From NCBI GenBank assembly GCA_024694965.1, contig JAILJC010000192.1:1-41235 (forward strand): a stretch of 41,235 bases of DNA. The letters are read 5' to 3'. The first letter of the stretch is position 1; the number at the start of each line of letters is the position of its first letter. The DNA is from Lachnospiraceae bacterium. GTDB taxonomy: Bacteria > Bacillota > Clostridia > Lachnospirales > Lachnospiraceae. Below are positions 12,741 to 21,716 of the stretch, piece by piece. The notes below the pieces were generated by a model. It had not been told where the DNA came from. It did not search any database and saw nothing but the letters and a program-made list of their open reading frames with translations. A program made the translations under genes and the position numbers.

Positions 12741-14624
12741 TCACTCATTAAAGTACAGAAATTCTTCGGACTCTGTATGGAATATGATCTCTTCGGAAGA
12801 ACCGTCATCCTTAAGCATGGTCGCACATAACCGGTCGTCGCCCCAAAAGCCGCGTTCGTATTTTAAGTCCTTTATCCATCCGCCGCGGCAGTAGAACCCG
12901 GACGTGGTTACTACCTGATCTTCTTCACTGTAAGCATTTTTATCGGCGAAATAAGGGACTTTCATGATCTCGCGGCCGTTTATCTTAACAAGGAGGTCCG
13001 TATCGTCAAGCAAAATGACGACATCGGCATAATAACCGTTACCCGTAAAATCAAACCCGGTAATGGCCTGGGTCCAGTAATATGGTTCTTCACATGCATC
13101 AACTTCTTCTCCCTCTTTATCCGAAGAAGCAGCGGGTTCGGAAGCTTTTTTGGCCCAAAGGTCGAGGAGTTTAACGGCGTTTTCCGGTTTTTCCACATCG
13201 CAGCCCTCCGGGAAGCTTGGATGATCTTCACCCGATCCGTAATAATCCGGGATATCTCCGGTAAATGTCACGGACTTAAGCTCCGTACATTCCCTGAAAG
13301 CACCCTCGCCAATGCTGCACATGTCCTTTCCGAAGGTTACTCTGCTTACAGGGCATTTCCAAAAGGCAACTTCCCCTAAATAAGTCATCCGGTCGGGGAA
13401 AACCAGTTCTCCTTTAAGTGAGTTACATCCGCCGAACGCATCATGTTTGATATGCTTAAGTGTGTCGGGGAAAGCTCTTATCGACGTGATCCCCGTGCAA
13501 TTGGAGAAGCTGCCGTTTCCTATTGATTCAAGACCGTCCGGAAATACAAGCTCTCCCGTAAAGCCGGTTGCGGTAAAGGCATAATCGCCTATGACTTTAA
13601 GTGATGCCGGCAGCTTAAGTTCACCGGTCATCCCATTGCAGTTTGAAAACGAGTTGCTGCATATGCATTCGATACCTTTGGGAAGTTTGAGCGAAGTGAA
13701 TCCCTCGCAGTACTGAAATGCGTGGTCGTATATCCTGGTGATGCTGTCCGGTATATTGAGTGCTCCCTTAAACGTATTGCCCGAAAAAGAATAAATCCCG
13801 ATATTATCAAGACCGTCGGGAAGTGTCAGGGTTCCGTCAAAATGGCAGTTACAAAAAGCCTGTGTGCTGATCGCCTTTACATTTTCGGGTATGACGAGGT
13901 CGCCCTTTAAGTTATCGCAGTTTGCAAAAGCGGCCATAGGTATATCGGTGAGCCCCTTTGAGAGTGTGAGAGTTCCGTCAAAGCCGCATTGGTCAAATGA
14001 ATAAGTACCGATGGAAGTTACGGAATCGGGGATCACAAGATCGCCCGTCAGGTTGCTGCAGATGTGGAATGCGCTTCTGTCAACGGTTTCAAGGCCGTCC
14101 GGCAATGTGAGAGTACCCTTAAGTCCGCTCATCTGGGCAAATGTTTCGACACCGATCGTCTTAAGAGATCTTGACAGGCTTATCCCTGTAAATCCCGTAC
14201 ATCTTGTGAACGCGTAATCACCGACATTTTCGACAGAATCCGGGATCTTAAGTTCTCCGGTAAGGCCGTCGCAGCCGTAGAATGCAAACTCGCCGATCTC
14301 TTTAAGGCTTTCGGGCAGAACAAGCTCACCCGTTAATGCATGATTGCCGTAAAAAGCATTTACATCGATAGAAGTGATGCCCTCTGAAATGACAAGCTTC
14401 TTTATCTGGTAATCCGACCACATGTATTTTTCGGGCGTTATCATATCGCCCGTTCCCGAGATAGTAAGCGTTTTCTTTGACCGGTCATAGGTCCAGGTGA
14501 TGTTATCGCCGCACTTGCCTTCGTTGCCCCTGTCCCTTGTATTTCCTTTATTATCCTTGGTACCGCATCCAAACAGATTAAGCAGCATGATTCCCCCCAA
14601 TATAAATATCAGTATCTTTTTCAT
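12741..14624 (-). CDS. BspA-type leucine-rich-repeat lipoprotein
   Basis: This is the only minus-strand gene. The 627-residue protein begins with a lipoprotein signal peptide (Met-Lys-Lys, a hydrophobic core, lipobox LFGC with Cys20), then about 15 to 16 tandem leucine-rich repeats of 23-24 residues of the LRR_5/BspA (TpLRR) type between residues about 65 and 470. Typical units read LPDGLETVDRSAF and IPDSVTSIGTYSF. A C-terminal region of about 150 residues without repeats follows, rich in aromatic and acidic residues. BspA-like proteins are exported and in some species bind host or cell-surface partners; the ligand here is unknown. GGGAGGAAG lies 7 bases before the start. The gene is inserted, in opposite orientation, between truB and ribF, and its end is only 13 bases from truB. 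Confidence 0.88.
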   Translation of the reverse strand: MKKILIFILGGIMLLNLFGCGTKDNKGNTRDRGNEGKCGDNITWTYDRSKKTLTISGTGDMITPEKYMWSDYQIKKLVISEGITSIDVNAFYGNHALTGELVLPESLKEIGEFAFYGCDGLTGELKIPDSVENVGDYAFTRCTGFTGISLSRSLKTIGVETFAQMSGLKGTLTLPDGLETVDRSAFHICSNLTGDLVIPDSVTSIGTYSFDQCGFDGTLTLSKGLTDIPMAAFANCDNLKGDLVIPENVKAISTQAFCNCHFDGTLTLPDGLDNIGIYSFSGNTFKGALNIPDSITRIYDHAFQYCEGFTSLKLPKGIECICSNSFSNCNGMTGELKLPASLKVIGDYAFTATGFTGELVFPDGLESIGNGSFSNCTGITSIRAFPDTLKHIKHDAFGGCNSLKGELVFPDRMTYLGEVAFWKCPVSRVTFGKDMCSIGEGAFRECTELKSVTFTGDIPDYYGSGEDHPSFPEGCDVEKPENAVKLLDLWAKKASEPAASSDKEGEEVDACEEPYYWTQAITGFDFTGNGYYADVVILLDDTDLLVKINGREIMKVPYFADKNAYSEEDQVVTTSGFYCRGGWIKDLKYERGFWGDDRLCATMLKDDGSSEEIIFHTESEEFLYFNE

Positions 14625-17605: not shown

Positions 17606-18139
17606 ATGGAAAAGACATATAAAGGAACCGTAATAGGAGCAGTAAAGGGCGATATAACCAGGCTTGACGGTATGGATGCATGGGTACTCGGTGCCGATAC
17701 GAGCCTGTATCTTGACAGCGGTGTATGCAAGGCTGTACATAAGGTGGCAGGAGCCGGATTGCTTGAGGCAGTAAGGGAACTTGGAGGATGTGAGCTTGGA
17801 GAAGCACGCATCACGCCTGCATTTGATGCACCCTGCAAGTCCGTTATCCATGTGGCGGTACCTAAGTGGAACGACGGAGAAGGAAATGTGAAAGATCTTC
17901 TTTATTCGTGTTATACAAGAATATGTGCCCTTGCCGCTGAGAATGACCTGGATTCGGTAGCTATGCCTTCGCTCGGCACAGGAGTCTATGCATGGCCTCT
18001 TGATGTGGCGGTTGATATCGGATTGGCGGCGATCACTGCATATATAGATGCTCATGATAAAAAACCCGGTAAGTTTTTATGGGTTCTTTTTGATGATGAT
18101 ACATGTAAAGCTTATGAAGACGGAATAGCAAGGCTGTAG
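17606..18139 (+). CDS. Divergent macro-domain protein
   Basis: The 177-residue product is a single macro domain, a fold that binds ADP-ribose and often removes ADP-ribose or O-acetyl-ADP-ribose. The GDIT motif (residues 15-18), the GEARIT strand, IHVAVPKW and the P-S-L-G-T-G-V-Y phosphate loop (121-128) are kept. The usual V-N-A-A-N stretch reads V-L-G-A-D (27-31), the GGGV loop reads DSGV (37-40), and the Asp that follows it in hydrolases is Cys41. These changes suggest a binder or an altered reaction. AAGGAGG lies 5 bases before the ATG. The STAS-ligase gene starts 10 bases after the stop, so the two are almost surely cotranscribed. Family is certain, activity is not. Confidence 0.85.
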   Translation: MEKTYKGTVIGAVKGDITRLDGMDAWVLGADTSLYLDSGVCKAVHKVAGAGLLEAVRELGGCELGEARITPAFDAPCKSVIHVAVPKWNDGEGNVKDLLYSCYTRICALAAENDLDSVAMPSLGTGVYAWPLDVAVDIGLAAITAYIDAHDKKPGKFLWVLFDDDTCKAYEDGIARL

Positions 18140-18149
18140 GAGGAACTAA

Positions 18150-20018
18150 ATGGGTATTACTGTAAACGGATCTGATAAGACATTGGATGTGACCGTAAGC
18201 GGAAGGCTTGATTCGGCAGCCGCACCGGGACTTGACAGTGTACTTGATAAGATCACATCAGACATTGACACTATTAATTTTGATTTTTCCGATCTTGCCT
18301 ATATTTCTTCCGTAGGCCTCAGGAAAATACTGCAGATAAAAAAGGCACTGAATCCGGATGCAGTGATCGATATAAAAGGCGTAACCGAGACGGTGGCCGA
18401 GACTTTCCGGGTTACCGGATTTGATTCATATGTTAAGCTGCATACGGCTTTGGATAACAGCGGTTTGTCCATAAAGGATCTATTTGCGGCAAGAGTGAAA
18501 GAATATTCCGGCAATGTTTTTGTAAGTGCCGACAGGCCGTATACGTTCAATGAGATAGACAGGCAGTCACAGGTCCTTGCGACGAAGCTGTTTGAAGCAG
18601 GAGTTCATAAAGGAACGCATGTCGGATTATACAGTTTTAATTCCGTAAACTGGGTTGTTGCATTCTTCGCGGTACAAAAATGCGGTGCCATCGCGCTTCC
18701 GTTAAGTTACAGTTACACAAAGGAAGAACTCGTTTCCCTGTCACAGATCGGGGATATAACGCATATCTGTGCCGGAAATGCGGAGGAAACGGGTGACTTT
18801 GAGGGCTTTGTCTCTGCCCTTACGTCCGCTGACGGTTCACAGATCAGAAGTATTACGGATATAAGAAACGAAGTATCTTTTGATATGGATGAAGCTGAGT
18901 ATGAAGGTATATCTGGGCAGTTTTCCGATGTTCTCGATCCGGAAGATGACTGTATCATGCTCTTTACATCAGGCTCGACCGGGAAGCCCAAAGCAGTGCT
19001 TCATTCATCCTACAGCATTCTCCATTCGGCTCAGTGTGCTGTGGATGTAATGGATCTTGGCAGCAAAGACAGTGTATGCATGAATGTTCCTTTTTCACAT
19101 ACTTTGGGTCTTGTGCGCTGCTTTCTTGCGGGACTTATCGCAGGCGCCAGGCTGGAACTGCCTTCAAGCTTTGACATAAAGGAACTGATAGCTTTTGTGG
19201 ACGAAAGGAAATGTACGGTAATGAACGCCGTTCCGACTACGGTGGTATCCATGGCCAATGACAGCACATTTTCTCCTGATAAAGTATCGTCGATACGCTG
19301 TTCCATTCTTGTGGGAGCTCCCGTTACCGAAACCCAGATGCATATGCTTATTGAATGCTTTGCAAACAATCATTTCATATCGTCATACGGAATGAGTGAG
19401 CTTTCGCCGATCACCATGACAGAGTATACGGATACGACCGAGCATATCTGCTGCACTGTCGGAAAGGTCTGCGACGGAGTGGAAGTTGGCCTGTTCGATC
19501 TTAATACCGGAGAACAGCTTGATCCTGCAAAGGGTGAAAAAGGCGAGATAGCCGTCAGGGGAACCAGCGCAATGACGGCATATTACAAGATCGATCCGGA
19601 CCGCCAGGCGATAGATAAAAACGGCTACATTAAAACAGGTGATTTTGGCTTCTTCGACAAGGAAAATTATCTGCATATAGGCGGCAGGATGAAGGAACTC
19701 ATACATACATCGGGATATACGGTTGAACCCAATGAGGTAGCTTCCGTCATAAGCTCATATGATGCGATCGCCGATGTCAAGGTTTTGGGCATTCCGGATG
19801 ATGAGCACGGAGAACTTGTCATAGCCTGCATAACGCCAAAGAGCGGAATGAAGATAGATGAGGATGACTTAAATGATAAGATATCCGCGAAACTGGATTC
19901 GTATAAACTCCCGGCAAGATATCTGATTTACGACCGCCTGCCTATATTGTCAAACGGTAAGGTGGATGCGGTTTCTCTTAAGGCAGATGCCGAAGCAAAG
20001 GTAAAAAGCTCGAAGTGA
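18150..20018 (+). CDS. STAS domain fused to an adenylate-forming (acyl-CoA synthetase-like) ligase
   Basis: The 622-residue protein is a fusion. Residues 1-105 are a STAS domain of the anti-sigma-antagonist (SpoIIAA/RsbV) type, with DFSDLAYISSVGLRKIL; Ser54 aligns with the serine that partner kinases phosphorylate. Residues about 115-615 are a complete class I adenylate-forming domain: FTSGSTGKPKA (272-282), the YGMSELSP motif, the KTGDFG motif and the catalytic lysine Lys604 in SNGKVD. Such enzymes activate a carboxylate as acyl-AMP and usually make acyl-CoA. The substrate is not predictable by eye. AGGAGG lies 6 bases before the ATG, and the HATPase-symporter gene follows after 24 bases. 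Since STAS domains bind HATPase anti-sigma kinases, and the next product starts with such a domain, a physical pairing of the two proteins is likely. The pairing is an inference. Confidence 0.87.
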   Translation: MGITVNGSDKTLDVTVSGRLDSAAAPGLDSVLDKITSDIDTINFDFSDLAYISSVGLRKILQIKKALNPDAVIDIKGVTETVAETFRVTGFDSYVKLHTALDNSGLSIKDLFAARVKEYSGNVFVSADRPYTFNEIDRQSQVLATKLFEAGVHKGTHVGLYSFNSVNWVVAFFAVQKCGAIALPLSYSYTKEELVSLSQIGDITHICAGNAEETGDFEGFVSALTSADGSQIRSITDIRNEVSFDMDEAEYEGISGQFSDVLDPEDDCIMLFTSGSTGKPKAVLHSSYSILHSAQCAVDVMDLGSKDSVCMNVPFSHTLGLVRCFLAGLIAGARLELPSSFDIKELIAFVDERKCTVMNAVPTTVVSMANDSTFSPDKVSSIRCSILVGAPVTETQMHMLIECFANNHFISSYGMSELSPITMTEYTDTTEHICCTVGKVCDGVEVGLFDLNTGEQLDPAKGEKGEIAVRGTSAMTAYYKIDPDRQAIDKNGYIKTGDFGFFDKENYLHIGGRMKELIHTSGYTVEPNEVASVISSYDAIADVKVLGIPDDEHGELVIACITPKSGMKIDEDDLNDKISAKLDSYKLPARYLIYDRLPILSNGKVDAVSLKADAEAKVKSSK

Positions 20019-20042
20019 TCTAAAAGGAGGAGATTAAAGATA

Positions 20043-21716
20043 ATGAAGATCAGGAAGGATTTTCTGGTTAATGATAAAAGCATCAGCGAGATCACAGTAT
20101 TTATTGAGGATACCCTTGCGGATTTCAAATTAAAGCATAAGGATATAACCAGGATCCTGCTCACGGTCGAAGAGGTGGCAGGCAGTCTTGTCGAGCACTG
20201 CGATAAGGCGGCTGCAGATGAGGATCCGGAAAACGTAATAAAAGTCGTTCTTAAGAAGGTTTACGGTAATGTGGTGATAGAACTGTCAGCAAAGGGTTCG
20301 GAATATCCTCTTGCAGACAATGTGAAATCCGCATCTTCTGATTCTATCGGTGATGAGGATGAGGGGGTGCAGGATGCGATAAGGAATATTCTGCTGCATT
20401 CTCTGGCCGATGATCTTAAATACAAGCATAAGAACGGCACTAACTATATCAGTATGACCATACTCAGGTCAAATAAGAAGATGCTGTATCAGACTCTCGG
20501 TGCCATGGCCATTGCCATTGTTGTGGGACTTATCTTTTCTTTGTGCGCACCGGCAGAGACAAATGCCTATTTAAGCAAGTTTGTACTAGGACGTGTAAAG
20601 ACCGTATATATGAACGCTCTTAAAATGGTTGTTGCACCGGTGGTGTTCTTTTCCATTGTTTCCTGTATCGTACAGTTTTCCGATCTGAACTCCTTAGGAA
20701 GGATCGGCGGAAAGATAATGGGAATGTATATGTTCACGACTCTTCTTGCTGTTACGGTGGGTATCTCAGTGGCATCTGCCCTGAGTTCATCAAGCTTTAT
20801 ACAGACATCCATGCAGGCCGCGGATGCTACCTCGATAACATCCCAGACAATGGAAGTTTCAATTGCGGATACTCTGGTCGGGATCGTGCCTTCGGATATC
20901 ATAACCCCGTTCCAGAAGTCAAATATGCTGCAGCTTATCTTTATGGCGGTTTTGTGCGGTATCGCGACAGGTCTTTTGGGCAAGTACTCACAGAGTCTTT
21001 CTGACCTCTTCAATGCGTGCAATGAGCTGTTCCTTAAGATCACGACCATCATCATCAGGTTTATGCCGATCGCCGTATTCTGTTCGATAGCGTCAATGGT
21101 AATGACTCTGGGGATATCTACCATCGTATCGCTGCTTGGTATGCTGGGACTTTTCCTGTTGGGACTTTTATGCATGATGATCGTCTATTGTCTCCTGATG
21201 GTTGTGTTCGGAAGGCTGAATCCCATTCCGTTCATAAAGAAATACTCATCAGTCATGCTGCAGGTTTTCTCGATGGCTTCCTCAAATGCTTCGATCCCGA
21301 TAAACATGGAGGCGTGCGAAGAGAGGCTGGGAATCAAAAAGAAGGTATTTTCGCTGTCCATCCCCCTGGGTGCAACTCTTAACATGGACGGAACCTGTAT
21401 CTATCTTGCGATATTTGCCTTGTGCCTTGCAAGGATATACGGCGTTGATGTTTCGCAGGCAGGTTTGCTTTCCATGGTAATATCCATTATCGTTCTCTCA
21501 GTCGGAGCGCCCGGTATTCCGGGATCGGGACTTATCTGCCTGTCCGTACTGCTTACTCAGATCAATGTACCGGTTGAGGCTGTCGGACTCATCATGGGTA
21601 TAGATTCACTGTGCGGAATGCTCCGTACAATGAGCAACTGCCTGGGAGATGTTGCGGTTTCCACGGTCGTTGCAAAAACGGAAGGCGAGATCGATATGGA
21701 GGTTTATCGCAATTAA
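20043..21716 (+). CDS. HATPase (anti-sigma-factor-like) domain fused to a dicarboxylate/amino-acid:cation symporter
   Basis: The 557-residue protein is a fusion. Residues 1-142 resemble a SpoIIAB/RsbW-type HATPase: helix ITRILLTVEEVAGSLVEHC carries the conserved Glu44 and His52, and the end of the domain has the N-G-T-N-Y-I-S-M strand. The N-box Asn is Ser48 and the G1-box Asp is Ala83, so ATP binding may be lost. From residue 149 to the end it is a complete DAACS symporter (PF00375) with about eight membrane segments, the NMDGT motif at 447-451, GAPGIPGSG, and the substrate helix with Arg528, Asn532 and Asp536. The amino-group-binding Asp of glutamate carriers is Gly525, which favours a dicarboxylate without an amino group. 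AGGAGG lies about 12 bases upstream, so the spacing to the ATG is long. Function in concert with the preceding STAS-ligase is inferred. Confidence 0.87.
   Translation: MKIRKDFLVNDKSISEITVFIEDTLADFKLKHKDITRILLTVEEVAGSLVEHCDKAAADEDPENVIKVVLKKVYGNVVIELSAKGSEYPLADNVKSASSDSIGDEDEGVQDAIRNILLHSLADDLKYKHKNGTNYISMTILRSNKKMLYQTLGAMAIAIVVGLIFSLCAPAETNAYLSKFVLGRVKTVYMNALKMVVAPVVFFSIVSCIVQFSDLNSLGRIGGKIMGMYMFTTLLAVTVGISVASALSSSSFIQTSMQAADATSITSQTMEVSIADTLVGIVPSDIITPFQKSNMLQLIFMAVLCGIATGLLGKYSQSLSDLFNACNELFLKITTIIIRFMPIAVFCSIASMVMTLGISTIVSLLGMLGLFLLGLLCMMIVYCLLMVVFGRLNPIPFIKKYSSVMLQVFSMASSNASIPINMEACEERLGIKKKVFSLSIPLGATLNMDGTCIYLAIFALCLARIYGVDVSQAGLLSMVISIIVLSVGAPGIPGSGLICLSVLLTQINVPVEAVGLIMGIDSLCGMLRTMSNCLGDVAVSTVVAKTEGEIDMEVYRN

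Follow-up and report, generated by a model that had tools for sequence, protein, structure and literature searches.

Can a partner-switching module serve to connect an enzyme with a membrane carrier? STAS and RsbW domains are mostly familiar from the control of transcription, although a few transporter cases exist, e.g., MlaB. The question is raised by two adjacent genes in a stretch of 41,235 nucleotides from a Lachnospiraceae bacterium (GenBank assembly GCA_024694965.1, contig JAILJC010000192.1; the whole stretch is referred to here as the window). The first gene (18150-20018, plus strand) encodes a protein of 622 residues in which an N-terminal STAS domain is followed by a complete adenylate-forming ligase (STAS-ligase). 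The second (20043-21716, plus strand) starts 24 bases further on and encodes a protein of 557 residues in which an N-terminal GHKL domain of the HATPase_c_2 family is followed by a full SDF carrier (HATPase-SDF). An earlier reading of the letters alone (the sequence-only reading) had placed the two genes, their strand and their spacing correctly, and had proposed that they form a joint uptake-and-activation system.

The explanation tentatively preferred here, with less than even confidence, is that a partner-switching module that once acted on sigma factors now acts on an enzyme and a carrier, the STAS domain docking on a pseudokinase. The STAS domain would tag a soluble acyl-activating ligase, and a former RsbW-type kinase domain would form the cytosolic end of an SDF carrier whose Na+ ligands are kept. 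The termini of SDF carriers are cytosolic, and the GHKL domain would therefore face the ligase. Docking would bring the two proteins together at the membrane, each able to sense the other's state, and would either draw the ligase to the carrier or signal the carrier's state to it. The GHKL domain is seen as a docking or sensing pseudokinase because the Asn and Asp of its ATP site are missing, and any phosphorylation of Ser54 in the STAS domain would be carried out by another kinase, as RsbW could do in those relatives that keep one. The sequences show the domains, their order in two species, the signs of constraint, the loss of the ATP-site residues, and the partner-switch genes near the ligase in other genomes; binding of STAS to GHKL, recruitment to the membrane, a carboxylate substrate, and the direction of control are inferences.

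Domains of the ligase and the carrier

The STAS domain matches Pfam at residues 4-102 (40.6 bits, cut-off 22.6). In a weak match to chain 6m36_B (E 0.026), its Ser54 falls on the RsbV-motif serine (YISSVGL versus YMDSTGL of 6m36_B), and the better STAS match, 4hyl (E 4.4e-8), gives the same placement. The phosphorylation position holds Ser in seven of the eight STAS-ligases found and Leu in the eighth (G323), and the earlier assignment of Ser54 is upheld. The ligase consists of an AMP-binding core (residues 114-479) and an AMP-binding_C domain (residues 529-604), and carries TSGSTGKPK, YGMSE, YIKTGD, and K604, to which we assign the presumed roles of these motifs. With core, C-terminal domain, and catalytic lysine, it has the features of an ANL enzyme and is complete, and the key motifs named in the sequence-only reading are present. 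The closest solved chain is the oxalate--CoA ligase 5ie0 (E 2.3e-45), and 4-coumarate, feruloyl, fatty-acyl, and malonyl ligases score about as well against the window ligase as oxalate ligases do; no substrate is therefore assigned to it.

The GHKL domain of the carrier is degenerate. Its HATPase_c_2 match (residues 12-139) scores 19.0 bits where the cut-off is 27.4, and a phmmer search of the domain against the PDB returned no relative, the single match being talin (E 1.2). Its homology to RsbW is instead based on a profile-profile comparison (hhalign) of 54 SDF-fused domains with five free RsbW proteins, which gave a probability of 97.7% (E 1.4e-12). In the motifs that we take to be the N-box and G1, the window protein has Ser48 (20184-20186) in place of Asn and Ala83 (20289-20291) in place of Asp. 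Across the 54 HATPase-SDF fusions, window and second copy (see below) included, Glu44 is kept in 49, the N-box Asn in five, and the G1 Asp in none, whereas 54 HATPase domains fused to MATE carriers have the Asn in 50 and the Asp in 52 cases. These counts come from an automatic alignment, in which the group of free domains used for comparison had nine rows, five of clear RsbW and four doubtful. The loss of the ATP site spans the whole HATPase-SDF family, with or without a STAS neighbour. By its sequence, the domain of the carrier is a predicted pseudokinase, and phosphotransfer by it is unlikely because the Asn and Asp are lost; active phosphotransfer was rejected as an explanation on the basis of these residues. 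The term anti-sigma-factor type, used in the sequence-only reading, thus holds by descent and fails at the ATP site, and that of a classic signalling pair does not hold, as one half lies below the Pfam cut-off and lacks both the N-box Asn and the G1 Asp of a kinase.

The SDF domain (residues 149-545) is complete, as had been stated, and keeps the Na+ ligands NMDGT (residues 447-451), N532, and D536. At the positions that we take, in GltPh numbering, to determine aspartate/glutamate specificity, D394 and R397, it has Gly525 and Arg528, respectively, and thus lacks the Asp of the pair. Read through this assumed role, Gly525 together with Arg528 suggests that the substrate is an acidic compound without an amino group, as for DctA. 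The DctA model is also the best NCBIfam match of the carrier, though under its cut-off, and the closest solved chain is the aspartate transporter 9bgz. In the D394 column, 52 fused carriers have Gly (29), Asp (15), Ser (4), or other residues (4), versus Asp in all 26 rows labelled as plain SDF, two of which are probably cut fused genes.

The locus in two species

A scan of genome contigs identified one further locus with the same pair (L031), in an uncultured Lachnospiraceae metagenome-assembled genome (G487). The gene order, macro-domain gene, STAS-ligase, and HATPase-SDF, is the same, with identities of 77% (macro-domain protein, L031 994-1527), 80%, and 80%, respectively. Past the carrier gene, L031 has a gene on the opposite strand, by eye an HD-GYP response regulator. 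The downstream flank thus differs, and the three-gene unit stayed together while the flank changed. An assembly artefact was rejected as the origin of the pair, as L031 comes from an independent assembly with the pair in the same order. Substitution rates between the two copies (dN/dS, NG86) are 0.18/0.77 for STAS, 0.10/0.95 for the ligase, 0.21/1.26 for GHKL, 0.09/0.67 for SDF, and 0.13/1.26 for the macro-domain protein, and YN00 gives 0.23/0.98 for GHKL. All domains look constrained, the two regulatory ones the least. As a separate observation, a macro-domain gene directly precedes the pair in both genomes.

Table 1. Features of the STAS-ligase and HATPase-SDF locus in the window.
Feature	Position	Strand	Evidence
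Macro-domain protein gene	17606..18139	+	PF01661, E 1.5e-29; ends 10 bases before the ligase gene
STAS domain of the ligase protein	18150..18464	+	PF01740, E 2.4e-10; Ser54 codon 18309-18311
Adenylate-forming ligase, AMP-binding and C-terminal domain	18489..20018	+	PF00501, E 2.9e-62; PF13193, E 2.1e-11
Degenerate GHKL (RsbW-like) domain, carrier N terminus	20043..20480	+	PF13581, E 0.0014, below cut-off
SDF/DAACS carrier	20487..21716	+	PF00375, E 2.4e-98

Both genes of the pair are preceded by a GGAGG-type ribosome site. Sites resembling promoters or terminators are no more frequent here than in shuffled sequence, and none lies in the two gene junctions. Upstream of the pair, Pfam identifies genes for a riboflavin kinase/FAD synthetase and for a Na/Pi carrier; downstream, rpsO and pnp were read from the translations. 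Elsewhere in the window, a BspA-type leucine-rich-repeat protein (12741-14624, minus strand) is encoded on the opposite strand amid translation genes. No PP2C phosphatase (SpoIIE/RsbU) adjoins the pair. In agreement with the sequence-only reading, no sigma factor was found among the 25 window open reading frames scanned with Pfam, the remaining frames of the 41-kb window and the rest of the genome not having been searched. This bears on the possibility of classical partner switching, in which the HATPase would be a membrane-bound anti-sigma factor under the control of transport and the STAS-ligase its antagonist. The STAS and HATPase domains are homologous to RsbV and RsbW, and extracytoplasmic function (ECF) sigma genes occur in related clusters of two other genomes (L087 and L089); given the lost ATP-site residues and the lack of a sigma factor among the scanned frames, such a role is very improbable.

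The genome of the window (G000; 88% complete, 228 contigs) has eight HATPase_c_2 matches. One is this carrier, the other seven lie in frames of 401 to 971 residues and are presumably histidine kinases, and no free protein of RsbW size is among the eight. Of its three STAS matches, the other two are on proteins of about 400 residues, one of which combines STAS with an APH-type kinase domain. Two near-identical SpoIIE genes lie on separate contigs (C169, C113), the one scanned having dCache and HAMP domains, and each follows a gene for a protein of 525 residues, by eye a membrane protein. The sister genome G487 has a free STAS protein, and SpoIIE gave no match in it at E 0.001.

Neighbours and distribution in other genomes

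The six STAS-ligases outside the window lineage are accompanied by partner-switch genes in three cases. In G447 (L251), a SpoIIE gene ends five bases before the STAS-ligase, and further on lie a membrane protein of the HGSNAT/acyltransferase-3 type, a second SpoIIE (identified with a profile made for this analysis), and, about 8 kb from the ligase, an intact RsbW. In G259 (L250), the STAS-ligase begins within a HAMP-SpoIIE gene. In G077 (L089), the order is acyltransferase, STAS-ligase, free STAS, a protein of 210 residues, ECF sigma, STAS, SpoIIE with dCache, and RsbW. No partner-switch genes adjoin the STAS-ligase of G323 (L136), the contig of which bears a MATE-HATPase gene about 5 kb away, and that of G743 (L298) has, apart from contig ends, just two downstream neighbours, which lack a Pfam match. 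Because three other STAS-ligases accompany SpoIIE phosphatases and/or intact RsbW, the ligase probably carries its STAS as a genuine partner-switch domain. Several further gene types were noted. Proteins of about 210 residues with a GHKL-like start occur at L089:8475-9107, L140:91-711, L146:8874-9506, and L090:12322-12957; a free STAS gene adjoins three of them (L089, L140, L146), and the two that were scanned had no Pfam match. A recurrent set (L251:12657-16887, L089:11401-15546, L090, L091) comprises a protein of just under 1000 residues whose start is of the secretion type, a membrane protein resembling acyltransferase-3, and a ligase that may or may not carry STAS.

In a ligase tree of 37 rows (G743 left out), seven STAS-ligases fall in one clade of 10 rows with a support of 100/100; the three other rows lack STAS, one of them being a contig-end fragment. 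Two nonribosomal peptide synthetase (NRPS) proteins with STAS fall outside this clade, in a tree with several long branches, and STAS has therefore been joined to adenylating enzymes more than once. N-terminal STAS domains were observed on NRPS proteins at L184:10973-14425 and L188:5257-8685 (STAS-A-PCP-C) and at L141:9588-11186 (STAS-C), the separation of this fusion from the STAS-ligases being based on the tree positions of L184 and L188 only. The same evidence makes it improbable that STAS is a mere folding or oligomerisation appendage of the ligase without a partner: the serine is kept in all but one STAS-ligase, SpoIIE or RsbW neighbours are present in half of those outside the window lineage, and STAS was separately fused to NRPS enzymes. 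For an appendage speak the two close ligase relatives without STAS (G001, G029), the Leu in G323, and the constraint by YN00, which is lowest for STAS (see below).

Neighbours of the carriers were counted with a simple caller that takes the longest non-overlapping open reading frames of at least 70 residues and that dropped real genes, including the macro-domain gene of L031 and the HATPase-SDF of L066 (G397). In 51 HATPase-SDF loci (window and L031 left out; L066 thus not counted; L072 and L116 without a visible upstream gene), a free STAS gene adjoins the carrier in two, namely, in G323 (L073) and G248 (L087), directly next to it. Within four genes, there is an adenylation enzyme in five loci (one of them, L147, a doubtful piece of 77 residues), another HATPase in eight, and SpoIIE in one. 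The 39 MATE-HATPase genes have STAS (6), adenylation (6), and SpoIIE (5) neighbours, one of the STAS neighbours (L243) being a hydrolase with a STAS match just below the Pfam cut-off. None of 21 plain SDF genes has a STAS, SpoIIE, other HATPase, or adenylation neighbour. Any such module is thus found within four genes of 26/90 HATPase-carriers versus 0/21 plain SDF genes (Fisher p 0.003), the control not being matched by genome, and adjoining STAS in 2/51 HATPase-SDF loci compares with about 0.15 expected (p 0.01, rising to 0.05 if STAS density is set higher; both densities are rough). The association of fused carriers with partner-switch and adenylation modules is suggestive rather than strong.

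The MATE carriers that end in an RsbW-like domain (e.g., L126:4846-6630, L087:5781-7547) were matched in at least 34/397 genomes of the family, and some of their genes adjoin STAS, SpoIIE, or NRPS genes. From its residues, the MATE-fused HATPase is likely a working kinase. Proteins of about 395 residues combining STAS with an APH-type kinase were observed at L185:2065-3255 (window genome) and L236:3087-4262, and one with an added HATPase_c_2 domain at L232:14726-16306; STAS genes of this size adjoin MATE-HATPase genes in L236 and L281 (the latter without a Pfam scan). L284:2843-5434 joins dCache, a SpoIIE phosphatase, and an RsbW-like domain in one protein; its gene lies directly ahead of a STAS gene and three genes ahead of a MATE-HATPase. 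A wider interpretation, rather unlikely as it stands, is that partner switching in Lachnospiraceae and their kin was broadly rewired from transcription to the coupling of enzymes with carriers. A STAS:GHKL dock, either constitutive or under phosphorylation control, would bring activating or biosynthetic enzymes to the carrier that supplies them or through which their products are exported. STAS would have been fused independently to a stand-alone ligase, an NRPS adenylation protein, and an NRPS condensation protein. Secondary carriers would have received RsbW-like domains, those on MATE being intact and the one on SDF a pseudokinase. If so, the same protein-protein switch could gate metabolism directly, having been built repeatedly into activating enzymes and secondary carriers.

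The distribution of the two fusions was assessed in large runs in which three to eight candidates were scored per genome and fusions were called by frame length and query coverage, so that genome counts are lower bounds. HATPase-SDF was found in at least 18/397 genomes of the family and at least 19/37 of the same genus, the window genome being in both sets; without it, at least 17/396 and 18/36 remain, i.e., 35 other genomes. In 274 genomes of the class, fused matches at E 1e-72 or better, below which matches would not show, were limited to G000, G351, and G703, all from the window's family. STAS-ligase was found in at least 5/397 family genomes and in 2/274 class genomes, namely, G000 and G743, the latter from a different family; with G024 and G487, this gives eight in all. 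An obligate two-part system was accordingly rejected, as both architectures occur apart in other genomes. In the SDF tree, HATPase-SDF looks like a single old fused family (fewest changes, three, of which two are the contig-end fragments L096 and L138, taken as cut fused genes labelled plain). The window carrier and L031 cluster with 14 further fused carriers (support 0.97), none of which was seen with an adjoining STAS-ligase; one of the 14, L124 (G029), adjoins an A-PCP-C NRPS gene.

The main rival to docking is independence, i.e., that ligase and carrier are neighbours by historical accident. HATPase-SDF would be a self-contained carrier or transceptor, in which the GHKL domain gates or senses inside its own protein, the STAS-ligase would answer to other kinases and phosphatases, and the two would share an operon without contact. 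This is quite possible, though short of probable. It would fit the seemingly single old family of fused carriers, of which 40/51 loci have none of the searched modules nearby, the three other genomes in which the STAS-ligase accompanies SpoIIE and/or RsbW, an ATP site lost irrespective of a STAS neighbour, and the co-occurrence figures given below. Several results also weigh against docking itself, as does one on DauA given below. Only two of the eight STAS-ligases adjoin HATPase-SDF (window and G487), two of the six unpaired ones (G024, G743) lying on contigs of 3.6 and 5.3 kb, where neighbours could be missing, and paired loci make up 2/53 of the HATPase-SDF loci. The two paired loci are orthologues, so that the pairing is one local evolutionary event. 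Among the 35 other HATPase-SDF genomes, STAS-ligase was found, among the matches listed, only in G323, on a separate contig, and co-occurrence in the 396 other family genomes (1 versus 0.17 expected, p 0.16, two family runs that showed the same genomes being taken as one draw) is not significant. Taken singly, neither STAS neighbours (8/90 versus 0/21, p 0.35) nor adenylation neighbours (11/90 versus 0/21, p 0.12) of fused carriers are significant. YN00 gives a ratio of only 0.22/0.47 for STAS, by this method the least constrained domain. The R397-equivalent Arg is kept in 19/52 fused versus 22/26 plain rows, and transport function is therefore not uniform in the family; across the family as a whole the substrate site has diverged, and some members may be sensors instead of transporters. 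Lastly, the 88% completeness of G000 limits the point of the missing RsbW, and the sister genome G487 has a free RsbW (L189).

Against independence stand the order kept in a second species despite a different downstream flank, the assembled window genome, in which no free RsbW was seen, and the free STAS genes adjoining HATPase-SDF in two more genomes. The joint system of the sequence-only reading is thus retained in part. It gains from the order in L031, the constraint, the SpoIIE/RsbW genes near STAS-ligases (L250, L251, L089), the free STAS genes (L073, L087), and the missing free RsbW, and it loses its kinase-driven form, since with the ATP site gone a switch driven by the carrier domain is unlikely. 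The two architectures are not always neighbours, six of eight STAS-ligases not being seen paired and at least 35 other genomes having HATPase-SDF. Fusions without the partner in many genomes, which the same reading had named as evidence against a joint system, are largely what was found.

Comparison with known systems

In the literature matches listed, which mostly do not cover subscription journals, nothing was found on STAS-ligase, HATPase-SDF, or MATE-HATPase proteins. The closest known systems are SpoIIAA/SpoIIAB and RsbV/RsbW, with SpoIIE/RsbU: the two domain families are the same, the STAS serine is kept, and relatives have SpoIIE neighbours. Unlike in these systems, the window domains are fused to a ligase and a carrier, the ATP site of the kinase is lost, and no sigma factor is seen beside the pair. 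Within the window's own family, the MATE-HATPase_c_2 fusions likewise have an RsbW-like domain at the end of a secondary carrier, but it is C-terminal, on MATE, and with mostly intact ATP-site residues.

Other systems also take STAS or RsbW-like domains away from sigma factors. MlaB, a STAS protein, binds the ABC (ATP-binding cassette) transporter ATPase MlaF (PMC7367683), so that STAS acts on a transporter here as well; the partner is an ABC ATPase, not a GHKL domain, and a ligase is absent. TciR (REC plus an RsbW-like domain) and SypE/SypA have non-sigma or unknown outputs (PMC12826045, PMC8256260); they resemble the window pair in the fusion of an RsbW-like domain to another module, and differ in that no carrier or ligase is fused. 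Lastly, the SLC26/STAS carrier DauA of E. coli binds the SDF dicarboxylate carrier DctA via membrane domains, and the isolated DauA STAS did not bind DctA (PMC5703999). A STAS-bearing protein thus works with an SDF carrier in that system too, with STAS placed on a carrier and contact made through the membrane domains, whereas in the window pair STAS is on a soluble ligase and would dock on the GHKL domain.

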